NCBI GenBank assembly: GCA_030602715.1
Contig: JAUVZD010000001.1
Location: 1 to 64,000 of the forward strand
DNA: 64,000 nt
Direction: 5' to 3'
Origin: Candidatus Coatesiibacteriota bacterium
GTDB taxonomy: Bacteria > RBG-13-66-14 > B26-G2 > JAUVZD01
The notes beneath the pieces were generated by a model. The model made no database searches and had not been told where the DNA came from. It worked only from the letters and a program-made list of their open reading frames with translations. Below, one piece after another: positions 19,240 through 45,314 of the stretch (position 1 is the first letter of the stretch; every line of letters begins with the position of its first letter). The translations under genes and the position numbers were made by a program.

Positions 19240-19887
19240 ATGAGGAACTTTATTCCTACGAGCGGGTTAATTTTAGCCCTAACGGTCCTTTTTATCATTC
19301 CAGGTGTCGCTTCCGCATTAACGGCAGAGGAATGGTTTAACCGGGGTGTTGATTATTTTAAAGCCGGGGACTACGAAGAGGCGATAGAATGCTTTGATAA
19401 GGCGCTGGAAATTGACCCGGACTATATTAAGGCTTTGAACTACAAGGGGTATACACTAGACGACCTGGGCAAATACGAAGAGGCGATAGAATGTTACGAT
19501 AAGGTTCTAGAAATTGACCTGGACAACGTCCATGCTTGGTACAACAAAGGATTTACCCTGGCCAACCTGAGCAAATACGAAGAGGCGATAGAATGCTACG
19601 ACCGGGCTCTGGAGATTAACCCGGACTTCGCCTATGCCTGGTACAACAAGGGGAATGCCATCCTCCACCTGGGCGAATACGAAGAGGCGCTAGAATGTTA
19701 CGATAAGGCGCTGGAAATTGACCCGGACTACGCCGGTGCCTGGTACGGCAAGGGATTTACCCTCAACAACCTGGGTAAATACGAAGAGGCGATAGAATGC
19801 TACGACCGGGCTCTGGAGATAAATCCGGAATTCGAAAAAGCCTTGAAGAAAAAAGCAGAAGCCCTGGAAAAACTTGGTAAAGAATAG
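19240..19887 (+). CDS. Secreted TPR protein A (5.5 repeats)
   Basis: Exported repeat protein of 215 residues. The signal peptide (MRNFIPTSGLILALTVLFII, then PGVASA) is shared with the next two genes. It is followed by 34-residue TPR units of the form AWYNKGFTLANLGKYEEAIECYDRALEINPD. Five full units and a half unit ending KALKKKAEALEKLGKE are present. TPR solenoids bind other proteins or peptides; the partner is unknown. The ATG is preceded by AAGGAGATGTACAACG. This is the shortest of three tandem paralogues. Confidence 0.85.
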   Translation: MRNFIPTSGLILALTVLFIIPGVASALTAEEWFNRGVDYFKAGDYEEAIECFDKALEIDPDYIKALNYKGYTLDDLGKYEEAIECYDKVLEIDLDNVHAWYNKGFTLANLSKYEEAIECYDRALEINPDFAYAWYNKGNAILHLGEYEEALECYDKALEIDPDYAGAWYGKGFTLNNLGKYEEAIECYDRALEINPEFEKALKKKAEALEKLGKE

Positions 19888-19996
19888 TACGGAGGTCCTG
19901 GCGTCGGGGCCTTATGTCCTATCGCCGGAGATGAATAGAATTATCGAAAACGAAGCGAGAAAAAAAATGCCTAACTTATAACGGAAAGGAGTTGCA
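19885..19996 (+). repeat. Duplicated intergenic segment, copy 1
   Basis: About 112 bp from the stop of TPR gene A to the start of gene B. It recurs with fewer than ten differences at 20951-21063. It includes the Shine-Dalgarno GGAAAGGAG of gene B. Confidence 0.88.
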
Positions 19997-20953
19997 ATGA
20001 GGAACTTTATTTCTACGAGCGGATTAATTTTAGCCCTGACGGTCCTTTTTATCATTCCAGGGGTTGCTTCCGCATTAACCGAAGGGCAGGAATGGTTTAA
20101 CAAGGGTATTGATTACCATAGAGCCGGAGACTACGAAGAAGCTATAGAATGCTTTGATAAGGCCATGGAAATTGACCCGGACGACGCCGATGCCTGGTAC
20201 AACAAGGGGGTTGCCCTCGGAAAACTTGGCAAATACGAAGAGGCGATAGAATGCTACGATAAGGCCTTGGAACTTGACCCGGACGACGCCGATGCCTGGA
20301 ACAACAAGGGGTTTGCCCTGCGCAAACTGGGTAAATACGAAGAAGCTATAGAATGCTTTGATAAAGCCCTGGAAATCGCCCCAGACTTTTCCAGTGCCTG
20401 GTACAACAAGGGGTTTGCCCTTCTCTACCTGGGCAAATACGAAGAAGCTATAGAATGCTTTGATAAAGCCCTGGAAATCGCCCCAGACTTCGCCAGTGCC
20501 TGGTACAACAAGGGGAATACACTCTACAGATTGGGCAAATACGAAAAGGCGATAGAATGCTTTGATAAGGCACTGGAAATTGACCCGGACTACGCCTTGG
20601 CCTGGTACAACAAGGGGGTTTCCCTCGGAAAACTTGGCAAATACGAAGAGGCGATAGAATGCTACGACCGGTTTCTGGAAATTAACCCGGACGACGCCTA
20701 TGCCTGGTACAACAAGGGGAATGCCCTGGTCCGCCTGGGCAAATACGAAGAGGCGATAGAATGCTACGACCGAGCACTGGAAATTGACCCGGACGACGCC
20801 GATGCCTGGTACAACAAGGGAAATACACTCTACGACCTGGGCAAATACGAAGAGGCTATAGAATGCTACGAACGGGCTCTGGAGATAAATCCGGAATTCG
20901 AAAAAGCCTTGAAGAAAAAAACAGAAGCCCTGAAAAAACTCGGTAAAGAATAG
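19997..20953 (+). CDS. Secreted TPR protein B (8.5 repeats)
   Basis: Paralogue of protein A, 318 residues, with the same signal peptide (one residue changed, IS for IP) and the same C-terminal cap KALKKKTEALKKLGKE. It has eight and a half 34-residue TPR units and differs from A by three whole units plus one residue. Gene B has the best Shine-Dalgarno of the downstream copies (GGAAAGGAG, 6 bp before the ATG). The flanking intergenic segments are near copies, so genes B and C probably arose by tandem duplication. Confidence 0.87.
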   Translation: MRNFISTSGLILALTVLFIIPGVASALTEGQEWFNKGIDYHRAGDYEEAIECFDKAMEIDPDDADAWYNKGVALGKLGKYEEAIECYDKALELDPDDADAWNNKGFALRKLGKYEEAIECFDKALEIAPDFSSAWYNKGFALLYLGKYEEAIECFDKALEIAPDFASAWYNKGNTLYRLGKYEKAIECFDKALEIDPDYALAWYNKGVSLGKLGKYEEAIECYDRFLEINPDDAYAWYNKGNALVRLGKYEEAIECYDRALEIDPDDADAWYNKGNTLYDLGKYEEAIECYERALEINPEFEKALKKKTEALKKLGKE

Positions 20954-21063
20954 TACGCAGGTCCTGGCGTCGGGGCCTTAGGTCCTATCGCCGGAGATGA
21001 ATAGAATTACCGAAAACGACGCGAGAAAAAAAAGTGCCTAACTTATAACGGAAAGTAGATGCA
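20951..21063 (+). repeat. Duplicated intergenic segment, copy 2
   Basis: Near copy of 19885-19996. The Shine-Dalgarno is changed from GGAAAGGAG to GGAAAGTAG before gene C. Confidence 0.88.
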
Positions 21064-22224
21064 ATGAGGAACTTTATTTCTACGAGCGGGTTAATTTTAA
21101 CCCTAACGGCCCTTTTTATCATTACAGGGGTCGCTTACGCATTAACCGAAGCACAGGAATGGGTTGACCGGGGTGTTGATTATTTTAAAGCCGGAAACTA
21201 CAAAGAGGCGAAAGAATGCTTTGATAAGGCACTGGAAATTGACCCGGACAACGCCGCTTTCTGGGGTATCAAGGGGTTTACCCTCGGTTGCCTAGGCAAA
21301 TACGAAGAGGCGATAGAATGCTTTGATAAAGCCCTGAAACTTGACCCGGACTACGCCGTGGCCTGGAACAATAAGGGGGGAACCCTGAGCCTCCTGGGCA
21401 AATACGAAGAGGCGATAGAATGTTACGACCGAGCCTTGGAAATTGACCCGGACGACGCCGAGGCCTGGTACAACAAGGGGAATGCCCTGGTCCGCCTGGG
21501 CAAATACGAAGAGGCGATAGAATGTTACGATAAAGCCCTGGAACTTGCTCCGGACTACACCGATGTCTGGATCAACAAGGGATTTACCCTGGACGAACTG
21601 GGAAAACACGAAGAGGCGATAGAATGCTGCGACCGGGCTCTGGAAATTGACCCGGACGACGCCGATGCCTGGATCAACAAGGGGGTTGCCCTTGACAGCC
21701 TGGGTAAATACGAAGAGGCGATAGAATGCTACGACCGGGCTCTGGAAATTGAACCGGACGACGCCGAGGCCTGGTACAACAAGGGGTATACACTCAACAG
21801 CCTGGGCAAATACGAAAAGGAGATAGAATGCTATGACCGGGCTCTGGAAATTAACCCGGACTTCGCCGATGCCTGGAACAACAAGGGGGCTGCCCTTGAC
21901 AGCCTGGGTAAATACGAAGAGGCGCTAGAATGCTATGACCGGGCTTTGGAAATTAACCCGGACTTCGCCGATGTGTGGTACAACAAGGGGGCTGCCCTGG
22001 ACGACCTGGGTAAATGCGAAGAGGCGATAGAATGTTACGATAAGGTTCTGGAAATTAACCCGGACGACGTAGATGTGTGGACCAACAAGGGGCTTGCCCT
22101 CAACAGCCTGGGCAGATACGAAGAGGCGGTAGAATGTTACGATAAAGCCTTGGAGATAAATCCGAACCTCGAAGAAGCCTCGGAGAATAAAGCGGAAGCC
22201 CTGGAAAAACTTGATGAAAAATAA
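21064..22224 (+). CDS. Secreted TPR protein C (10.5 repeats)
   Basis: Third and longest paralogue, 386 residues, exactly two 34-residue units longer than B. The signal peptide is conserved (ITGVAYA at the cleavage region) and the repeats follow the same consensus. The C-terminal cap has diverged (NLEEASENKAEALEKLDEK). The ribosome-binding site is weaker than that of gene B because AGGAG has become AGTAG. Downstream DNA is unrelated to the A-B and B-C intergenic copies, so C marks the end of the duplication. Confidence 0.87.
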   Translation: MRNFISTSGLILTLTALFIITGVAYALTEAQEWVDRGVDYFKAGNYKEAKECFDKALEIDPDNAAFWGIKGFTLGCLGKYEEAIECFDKALKLDPDYAVAWNNKGGTLSLLGKYEEAIECYDRALEIDPDDAEAWYNKGNALVRLGKYEEAIECYDKALELAPDYTDVWINKGFTLDELGKHEEAIECCDRALEIDPDDADAWINKGVALDSLGKYEEAIECYDRALEIEPDDAEAWYNKGYTLNSLGKYEKEIECYDRALEINPDFADAWNNKGAALDSLGKYEEALECYDRALEINPDFADVWYNKGAALDDLGKCEEAIECYDKVLEINPDDVDVWTNKGLALNSLGRYEEAVECYDKALEINPNLEEASENKAEALEKLDEK

Positions 22225-22570: not shown

Positions 22571-23584
22571 CTATTTGTTGAATTTTATTATCTTTAATTC
22601 ATTATTTTCTAATGTGTATTTATAAAGTCTATATTTATCGTCTTCTCCACAATAATCTATGACATCGGTAAAACCTCCACCTACCATTATCCGAATTACA
22701 TTCGCATTATTAAGATTCATGTTGAACCATTTTCCAAGGGCATTCTTGTATTCTTTGGAACCTTCTATAAAATCAGCGTATTTATCAAGTTGCTCTTTTA
22801 CATTTTCGTTAATTTTGTCCTTTTTTAACTCAAAGACCAGAATTTGCTTTTCTGATACTCCCAATATATCAATTCTCTTTCCCGAAGAATTAATTCTTAA
22901 CTGATTGTAGATAAAGAATTGACTACTAAAAAATTCTTTAAAATCTCCCTCTTTAATTGCATTCTCACTAATATCATTTTCTATGTTTAGAAAATCCCTT
23001 AATAGAAAAAATTCCAAGAAGGATTCCCAAAATCCATGTTGATTAGCGAGATTAATATTTAGCACTTCATTTCCAAATAGCTCTTTATCACCGGTATAAA
23101 TTATAGGTTCTTCTGCTTCTGCCCGGAGAGTTTTAATTACCTCCTCTTTGACAAGTTTTTCTATTAAAACTTCATCCTTAGGTAAAAATGTAAATAAACT
23201 TCTTCTAACATCTCCACTATCAATCCTTGCGCCCGCTTCTTCAAGATACTGGAAAACTTTAATCGGGTCAAGTCTATTCAATTTATCATGTTCTAACTTA
23301 AATCTATAGGGAAAAGAGTTTTTACTACTTTTATCTTCACTTTTATTATCTGTTGCTTTTTTAGGAAATGGGATTTTGTCGTTATAAACAATTCTCCTTT
23401 TCACATAATAGGGACCAATAATAAAACCACTATCAGTAGAAAAAATATAAAGTGTGTCTTCATCATTAAGCAACCCCAGCTGTTTAACAGAACGTTTTCC
23501 TACTCCGCATACTTGAGTTTTTTCAGAAGTCCTAACAAATTTTCCCTTAACTATGAACAAATGCTTTCTATGTCCCCCACCCAT
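22571..23584 (-). CDS. PD-(D/E)XK nuclease-like protein with PUA-like N-terminus
   Basis: Protein of 337 residues, AT-rich and unlike the surrounding core genes. The C-terminal third has a nuclease-like core: RIDILGV supplies an aspartate, followed by ILVFELKK with the E-x-K motif (about 240-260), as in NucS/DUF91-type endonucleases. The N-terminal about 70 residues (HLFIVKGKFVRTS to FIIGPYYV) recall PUA/EVE/DCD-like beta folds that bind modified bases or RNA, but that match is weak. The middle is helical and lysine-rich. It starts 3 bp after the antitoxin-like gene with GAGGTG ahead, so both are made together. A defence or toxin role is inference. Confidence 0.6.
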   Translation of the reverse strand: MGGGHRKHLFIVKGKFVRTSEKTQVCGVGKRSVKQLGLLNDEDTLYIFSTDSGFIIGPYYVKRRIVYNDKIPFPKKATDNKSEDKSSKNSFPYRFKLEHDKLNRLDPIKVFQYLEEAGARIDSGDVRRSLFTFLPKDEVLIEKLVKEEVIKTLRAEAEEPIIYTGDKELFGNEVLNINLANQHGFWESFLEFFLLRDFLNIENDISENAIKEGDFKEFFSSQFFIYNQLRINSSGKRIDILGVSEKQILVFELKKDKINENVKEQLDKYADFIEGSKEYKNALGKWFNMNLNNANVIRIMVGGGFTDVIDYCGEDDKYRLYKYTLENNELKIIKFNK

Positions 23585-23587
23585 TTC

Positions 23588-23773
23588 TCACACCTCACTT
23601 TTTGAAATTTCTTCCCAATCCAAATCAGGTTCACATCTTCTGACTTCCGCAATCTTTATATCCCCCAAATCCTGTAGAATCTCCTCTATCTCTTTGAATG
23701 TCTCCAGGTCCAAGACGACGGCCACCGGTTCTCCATCGGCACCGTATATGTATTGCTTGTTTATCGTAGTCAT
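23588..23773 (-). CDS. Antitoxin-like protein (Phd/RelB type)
   Basis: Small acidic protein of 61 residues. The pattern DGEPVAVVLDLETFKEIEEIL is that of Phd/YefM or RelB-like antitoxins and of short orphan antitoxins. It has AGGAGG 6 bp before the ATG and an extended -10 promoter. It is directly followed by the nuclease-like gene, not by a RelE, ParE or VapC toxin. Either it is an orphan or the nuclease-like protein is its partner. Autorepression of its promoter would be usual for the family but cannot be seen. Confidence 0.65.
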   Translation of the reverse strand: MTTINKQYIYGADGEPVAVVLDLETFKEIEEILQDLGDIKIAEVRRCEPDLDWEEISKSEV

Positions 23774-23790
23774 TTTGCCCTCCTGCGCAA

Positions 23791-23799
23791 ATTATAACA
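23791..23799 (-). promoter_or_regulatory. Extended -10 promoter of the antitoxin-nuclease pair
   Basis: On the minus strand TGtTATAAT lies 17 bp before the start at 23773. The -35 region is AT-rich with no clear hexamer. Confidence 0.5.
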
Positions 23800-23994
23800 T
23801 AACTGATTATTTTATATAAGTTTTTTTCGGATACTGCACCATATATAATTATCTTGTATGCTACTAACCTTATATCTATACAACTTCCAGTAAAATTCTG
23901 ATTATTATAAAAAGACGAGAAGAAATCCAATTGCTGACTTTTTTTGGCGGGTTTTATAGAAATTCGTCCTAGGATGAAATGTCGCTCGCACCGG

Positions 23995-44270: not shown

Positions 44271-45314
44271 ATGTATAAAGTAGATGTAATAGGGAAGAAG
44301 CTTAAAAAATTAGAAGTTATAAACTTTGGTGATCTTGAGGTAGAAGAAAGGTTTGATATTGAAGTATGGGTAAGAGAAAATCCAGAAATATTGGGAGAAC
44401 CTCTACTTATAGTATCTGAGCAAACTTTACTGCCTTCGGGGAGGCAACCAGATCTATTAGCGTTAGATAAAGATGGGAACATGGTTGTTATAGAGCTAAA
44501 AAAGGACGATTCTGGGAGGGAAGTTTATTGGCAAGGGATTACTTATACTGCTCAGATCTCAGAGTTTTCATATACAGATATAATAGACATGTATGAGAAA
44601 TATTTAGAAAACATAGGTATTACTGACCCAAACCCTAAAGATAATATTGAGGATTTTATTGAGGAGGATATAGAAAAAACTAATCAGAAGCAAAAACTAA
44701 TACTAGTTTCCAAAGAATTTCACCCTGATGTATTGAGGGCTGTATTATGGTTAAGAGATTTTGAAGTTGATATTAAATGTATAAAATTGACACCATATAA
44801 AGATGAAAATGATCAGGTGTTTTTGAATACAGAGATTATAATTCCAACACCAGGTGTTGAAGATTACATAGAGAAAAGAATTAGCAAACAAAAAAATGTC
44901 AAAAAAGCATATCCAAGTCCATTCTCGTTAGAGAGGGGTAGTTTTAAGGAAGATGAGTTGAAAATAAAGTTAATTAATACATTAACTAGAGTTTCAGACC
45001 TAACACCAAGGCTTATAGCATTCATAGAAATATTGTCATCAGAAGAAAGAACTTTTGACAGAGAGGAAATCAAGCAAAGATTTCATAATATGGGAATCGG
45101 GAAAAATATTGGTCAAAGTGGTAGATACCTTAGTAACATTTCACAATTCTTAACAAAAAAATCCACTCCTCATTTGAGGCAAGTTATTGAGTTTCAATTT
45201 CCGAAGGGCATTGAAGGGGAAGTTAAAGATAATTACAGAATCTTCCCAGAATATATTGAATTTGTAAAAGAAATATTAAAAGATGTGGTAGAGGGGAATA
45301 CAGCCGGAGATTAA
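44271..45314 (+). CDS. NucS/DUF91-type endonuclease-like protein
   Basis: Protein of 347 residues, strongly AT-rich compared with its neighbours. The N-terminal half has a PD-(D/E)XK core: ERFDIEVWVRENPEILG, QTLLPSGRQPDLLALDKDGN (catalytic aspartate near residue 65), then VVIELKKDDSG with the E-x-K pair (about 76-78). This order matches NucS-like and DUF91 proteins that cut branched or mismatched DNA. The C-terminal about 130 residues are helical and lysine-rich and may bind DNA. It sits between tRNA-Pro and tRNA-Arg, where mobile DNA often inserts. GAGAGGAAAG precedes the ATG. Confidence 0.75.
   Translation: MYKVDVIGKKLKKLEVINFGDLEVEERFDIEVWVRENPEILGEPLLIVSEQTLLPSGRQPDLLALDKDGNMVVIELKKDDSGREVYWQGITYTAQISEFSYTDIIDMYEKYLENIGITDPNPKDNIEDFIEEDIEKTNQKQKLILVSKEFHPDVLRAVLWLRDFEVDIKCIKLTPYKDENDQVFLNTEIIIPTPGVEDYIEKRISKQKNVKKAYPSPFSLERGSFKEDELKIKLINTLTRVSDLTPRLIAFIEILSSEERTFDREEIKQRFHNMGIGKNIGQSGRYLSNISQFLTKKSTPHLRQVIEFQFPKGIEGEVKDNYRIFPEYIEFVKEILKDVVEGNTAGD

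Follow-up and report, generated by a model that had tools for sequence, protein, structure and literature searches.

A RelB-like antitoxin gene followed by a DCD/EVE-NucS-like nuclease gene: a probable former relBE module with a restriction-type enzyme in the relE position

The DNA analysed here, referred to as the window, is a stretch of 64,000 nucleotides from a Candidatus Coatesiibacteriota bacterium. An earlier note, made from the sequence letters, had described within it an AT-rich unit with its own extended -10 promoter, in which a 61-residue antitoxin-like gene is followed after 3 bp by a gene for a 337-residue nuclease-like protein. Both open reading frames and the 3 bp intergenic gap were recovered at the positions described, and could be assigned to the minus strand, on which the note was silent. 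Each gene is present as a single copy in the genome (2.31 Mb, 18 contigs). The features of the locus are as follows.

23791..23801, minus strand: extended -10 promoter box TATGTTATAAT of the antitoxin-nuclease operon (sequence reading; the same box lies 5' of the relBE genes of genome G003, locus L033, in the alignment)
23778..23783, minus strand: ribosome-binding site GGAGGG of the antitoxin gene (sequence reading)
23588..23773, minus strand: RelB-like antitoxin gene, 61 aa (PF18506, 37.1 bits against a cut-off of 27; 65% identity to the G003 antitoxin)
23591..23596, minus strand: possible ribosome-binding site GAGGTG of the nuclease gene, within the final antitoxin codons (inferred from sequence reading)
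22571..23584, minus strand: DCD/EVE-NucS-like nuclease gene, 337 aa (seven full-length relatives elsewhere; alignment A5)
23150..23563, minus strand: N-terminal PUA-like (DCD/EVE) domain, about residues 8-145 (profile match of the family N-terminus to DCD; a relative's model compared with EVE)
22574..23044, minus strand: C-terminal PD-(D/E)XK domain, NucS/EndoMS-like, about residues 181-337 (model of the window protein compared with EndoMS 5gke)
22868..22870, minus strand: predicted catalytic D239 (invariant in 7/7 sequences)
22823..22831, minus strand: predicted catalytic E252-L-K254, the E-x-K motif (invariant in 7/7 sequences)

The promoter box, which reads from 23801 to 23791 ahead of the antitoxin gene, bears out the promoter that had been proposed, and alignment of the two loci showed that it is common to the relBE genes of G003. 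It was not listed by a scanner for paired -35/-10 elements, because there is no recognisable -35. The position of the possible nuclease ribosome-binding site inside the antitoxin gene suggests that the nuclease, read from the relB promoter, is likely to be translationally coupled to the antitoxin gene.

The small protein had been called Phd/RelB-like, and only the RelB part of that description held firmly: it matched the Pfam family PF18506 (RelB-like) with an E-value of 2.9e-9, whereas the match to Phd/YefM was weak (17 bits against a cut-off of 29.8) and covered only positions 33-64 of the 74 in that profile. Genes of the PF18506 type were found in 45 of 386 genomes, in 24 of them above the cut-off. 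The closest antitoxin, from a genome of the same class (G003), is identical at 65% of positions over 57 aa, and its gene is separated by 1 bp from a downstream 84-aa RelE-like open reading frame, which scored 31.1 bits against the ParE_toxin cut-off of 23 even when cut to 64 aa. Recognisable similarity between the window and G003 loci stops at the end of the antitoxin gene. The comparison therefore shows, as far as sequence homology goes, that the antitoxin and its promoter box correspond to those of a relBE module of the same class and that the nuclease gene occupies the position of relE. G003 also carries a relative of the nuclease, on contig C25, and its antitoxin lies on contig C11. Between the two antitoxin genes pN was 0.25 and pS 0.92, the latter near saturation; these values suggest purifying selection on the window gene when compared with its counterpart, which fits a retained function but cannot date the loss of relE.

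Conservation between these antitoxins is uneven, with 23 of 30 positions kept in the N-terminal half and 14 of 27 in the remainder. This pattern, together with the joint retention of promoter box and antitoxin, would suit a RelB-like protein that acts as a transcriptional regulator, repressing its own promoter and so delaying or limiting the nuclease in the manner of the controller proteins of restriction-modification systems. However, the protein is short and its Phd/YefM match is confined to part of that profile, so that there is no clear sign of a whole Phd-type DNA-binding domain, and a search for operator-like repeats at the promoter found none. We regard such a regulatory role as improbable.

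To place the arrangement among its relatives, 30 RelB-like loci, part of a longer list of matches from the 386 genomes, were surveyed. A RelE-like sequence lay near 23 of them, 17 of which match by construction since the counting profile was built from these loci after a motif filter; among the other six, the RelE-like sequence is upstream and on the opposite strand in L041, and the matches in L026 (E 3e-4) and L034 (E 5e-3) are weak. The seven loci in which it was absent include that of the window, and also L042, for which the sequence covered only 71 downstream bases. The window has a RelB-type antitoxin, and a six-frame search of it found no adjacent toxin of the RelE/ParE fold, which confirms the earlier observation that no classical toxin is present; in the same six-frame profile search for a RelE remnant nothing scored better than E 2.7. 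An unpaired RelE elsewhere in the genome, acting as a partner in trans, was considered and is unlikely, as the sole ParE_toxin match in this genome, on contig C4, has an upstream gene of its own. This ParE/YoeB-type toxin gene (L053:1155-1737) overlaps the upstream gene, whose 113-aa product has no Pfam match and is possibly an unusual antitoxin.

Two of the surveyed loci have other genes downstream. In L029 (1441-2026) the RelB-like antitoxin gene is followed after 25 bp by a gene for a minimal nucleotidyltransferase, with no RelE, and this may be another partner exchange. In L030 a RelB-like frame carrying a stop codon lies 185 bp 5' of an open reading frame that by eye looks like a subunit of a type I restriction enzyme and has an E-x-K motif.

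The 337-aa protein reached no cut-off in Pfam or NCBIfam (NERD, for example, scored 17.8 against 22.1) and had no PF10539 match of its own in Pfam; its weak matches were to NERD, Cas4, Hjc, NucS and the nuclease part of candidate defence proteins. In the alignment with its relatives (A5, seven sequences, which excludes the G793 protein found later) it is 18-25% identical to them, and E187, D239, E252 and K254 are invariant in all seven, which substantiates the D and E-x-K nuclease motifs noted before. The model of the window protein had a mean pLDDT of 52, with low confidence over the N-terminal two thirds; its nuclease part nevertheless matched EndoMS (5gke) with a Z-score of 10.4 (rmsd 3.2 over 110 residues). 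Because of this low confidence the model of a relative, L009, was used (mean pLDDT 83.2, pTM 0.86). Residues 1-144 of that model matched the EVE protein 1wmm (Z 13.2, rmsd 2.2, 127 residues), and its N-terminal domain matched the N-terminal domain of VcaM4I (6yex; Z 10.6, rmsd 3.5, 134 residues) and YTH domains (Z 8.6-9.8), whereas residues 178-297 matched EndoMS 5gke (Z 12.8, rmsd 2.5, 104 residues). VcaM4I is a modification-dependent restriction endonuclease with a reader domain and an HNH nuclease; its likeness to L009 is in the fold of the reader domain, and its HNH nuclease domain is of another fold.

The N-terminus of the family scored 40.9 against an alignment of four DCD domains, the best of 100 column shuffles reaching 17.0, and the relative L071 (genome G742) passed the cut-offs of both PF10539 DCD (Dev_Cell_Death; 35.0 against 27.8) and PF01939 NucS_C (31 against 24), for which reason the architecture is named DCD + NucS_C. 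Given the low identity of the window protein to these relatives (18-25%) and the poor quality of its own model, its reader domain was assigned through them. A DCD/EVE (PUA-like) reader at the N-terminus of the window nuclease, a domain suspected earlier, is thus supported through homology, and the C-terminal part is, by alignment and model, a PD-(D/E)XK domain with intact D and E-x-K residues. The protein shares the nuclease-domain fold and catalytic motif of the EndoMS/NucS mismatch endonuclease but differs from it in its PUA-like N-terminal domain and in its score against the whole-protein NucS equivalog of NCBIfam (17.3 bits against a cut-off of 216, with the match confined to residues 237-280). 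Matches to the PADLOC models PDC-S11 and PDC-S18, both of candidate defence nucleases, were likewise partial, covering only residues 216-276 and 225-275 at no more than 23.7 bits.

Of the 14 phylum genomes searched, five of the 13 besides that of the window contained relatives of the nuclease, at 26-28% identity. A profile of six sequences (A1) run over the 386 genomes returned the same six full-length proteins and otherwise partial matches limited to the nuclease domain, and further sets of 394 and 396 genomes, which may overlap the first, added full-length relatives in G742 and G793. A single-sequence scan of genome contigs for nuclease relatives gave none, and an alignment search of genome contigs gave four loci, which apparently coincide with four of the class relatives. 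Plasmid and phage records contained no match to either the antitoxin or the nuclease, and viral contigs contained no relative of the nuclease.

The neighbourhood survey covered the full-length relatives, with the nuclease-only matches L075 and L079-L082 set aside. In four genomes, all from one genus, the nuclease gene is flanked by a gene of 314-318 aa on one side and a gene of 194 aa on the other, the latter encoding what we take to be a SIS-type isomerase; in G002 it adjoins a gene for a PP-loop protein, and in G793 it stands alone. In G742 it begins 3 bp after an HNH_2 nuclease gene, which PADLOC HNH models match as well. The neighbourhood was not clearly one of defence for six of the seven relatives. 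A six-frame profile search of the flanks (1.5 to 4 kb) found RelB-like or RelE-like genes near the nuclease in none of the seven other genomes with full-length relatives, and the same gene order, looked for in other genomes as the earlier note had advised, was seen in this genome only. The nuclease family therefore needs no antitoxin, and the window nuclease is unlikely to be a toxin requiring one. As the conserved pairing expected of a type II toxin-antitoxin system with a nuclease toxin was lacking, a conserved toxin-antitoxin unit was dropped as the leading reading. The earlier note had named antitoxin homologues that are always solitary or paired with RelE/VapC-type toxins, with this order unique to one genome, as the pattern that would speak against its proposal of a toxin-antitoxin pair; the two surveys came close to that pattern, and the proposal was not supported.

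A pair confined to this genome might still be a toxin-antitoxin system that has swapped partners, in which the RelB-like protein would directly bind and restrain the nuclease and the latter would act as a toxin or abortive-infection effector upon RelB degradation. The antitoxin-first order, the gap of 3 bp and the nuclease ribosome-binding site within the antitoxin gene are as this would require, and the nucleotidyltransferase in the RelE position of L029 indicates that antitoxins of this family may exchange partners. Nevertheless, quite apart from the unpaired state of the nuclease relatives, inspection by eye of the other 29 RelB-like loci showed none that precedes a DCD/EVE-NucS-like nuclease, and we consider a swapped partnership unlikely. 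Adjacency is the one observation that points to a direct relationship between the RelB-like protein and the nuclease, and we hold such a relationship to be doubtful. There is, similarly, only a slim chance that an antitoxin of RelB type has taken on a new role as dedicated controller or inhibitor of a base-reading DNA nuclease, such that a type IV-like restriction enzyme would be run as a toxin-antitoxin module and freed by breakdown of the labile antitoxin in the course of an infection. If true, RelB control of the nuclease would connect two strategies of defence that normally remain separate.

The G+C content of the antitoxin gene is 43.5% and that of the nuclease gene 31.1%, compared with 53% for the remainder of the window; the most AT-rich 1.8 kb of the window, starting at 22201, contains both genes, so that the unit is indeed AT-rich, which is in line with a foreign origin. 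A search for mobile-element boundaries gave only short, chance-like repeats. The neighbours in the window encode TPR proteins and a PMT_2-type glycosyltransferase, with no defence genes among them. Relatives of the glycosyltransferase occur in 6 of the 13 other genomes of the phylum, and in the three such loci inspected (L055-L057) the antitoxin-nuclease pair was absent beside it. Positions 19240-22224 (plus strand) hold three consecutive similar TPR genes whose signal peptides are almost identical, indicating a recent tandem duplication.

The strong difference in base composition between the two genes, and an order confined to one genome, could also reflect chance adjacency or decay, with a relict antitoxin beside an inserted nuclease gene and no functional link whatever. 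RelB-like genes without RelE do occur at 6 of the 29 other loci, one of these at a contig end. However, both reading frames are uninterrupted, lie close together and have ribosome-binding sites, and the promoter scanner placed no site directly 5' of the nuclease (eight sites in the region on both strands, where 6.6 were expected). We judge mere coincidence to be very unlikely.

We therefore favour, as the probable explanation, a former relBE module in which the relE slot is now held by a stand-alone DCD/EVE-NucS nuclease gene, a replacement inferred from a single relBE relative (G003), with no closer genome showing the step itself. Since the relatives of the enzyme are unpaired elsewhere, the locus would represent an enzyme of restriction type in a former toxin-antitoxin slot, and not a new toxin-antitoxin family. 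The domain architecture of the nuclease, and one of the neighbours seen, point to restriction of a type IV-like kind, and the nuclease is most likely a stand-alone enzyme of this kind directed at modified DNA; the nuclease of defence type that had been put forward as an effector candidate accordingly stands as a prediction. Transcription of the operon would start at the former relB promoter, and translation of the antitoxin would be coupled to that of the nuclease, whose N-terminal reader would find modified or otherwise marked DNA, for example that of phage, for the NucS-like domain to cut. The RelB-like protein would be a retained upstream cistron, serving as a leader or as a spare antitoxin to counter RelE-type toxins of other origin, and would not be needed to restrain the nuclease.

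Compared with RelBE modules that have a PF18506 antitoxin, the window has the same antitoxin family, promoter box, antitoxin-first order and very short gap, but lacks RelE and has a 337-aa nuclease in its place. The fusion of DCD to PD-(D/E)XK is already published: Bell, Wolf and Koonin (2020; PMC7641849) describe bacterial and archaeal DCD domains that are found fused to PD-(D/E)XK nucleases and probably read modified DNA bases, and they predict that the fusion proteins restrict modified DNA. The window protein is like these in having an N-terminal DCD/EVE-like domain, a C-terminal PD-(D/E)XK domain and a predicted defence role; it differs in that its gene follows a RelB-like antitoxin gene and its nuclease part is NucS/EndoMS-like, and its binding of modified bases is a prediction. 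The ptuXYZ operon (Gerdes 2025; PMC11980606) encodes a type IV restriction-like protein with a RelE/YoeB-type toxin and an ATPase, and so resembles the window in coupling such a protein to a component of toxin-antitoxin type, whereas the window has an antitoxin without a toxin. In the titles and abstract openings of the open-licence literature we found no paper on a RelB antitoxin paired with a DCD-NucS nuclease. As an example the locus is a modest one, showing how another defence gene may come to occupy the slot of a toxin-antitoxin module. To the DCD-PD(D/E)XK proteins already described it contributes a branch of DCD/EVE-NucS nucleases, seen here in one little-studied phylum and two further genomes.

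Other nuclease genes were seen in the course of this work. On contig C18 of the same genome (L022, 79767-82913) a gene for a 496-aa NucS_C endonuclease lies directly beside one for an N6/N4 DNA methyltransferase, probably a restriction-modification system. Locus L019 (939-1964, minus strand), from another lineage, encodes a 341-aa protein in which a PUA/EVE-type domain precedes, by eye, a NucS-like nuclease. Within the window itself, a gene at 44271-45314 (plus strand), in a second AT-rich stretch, encodes a 347-aa nuclease-like protein with an E-x-K motif, which strongly matches the candidate defence family PDC-S11 of PADLOC (201 bits over residues 1-212).
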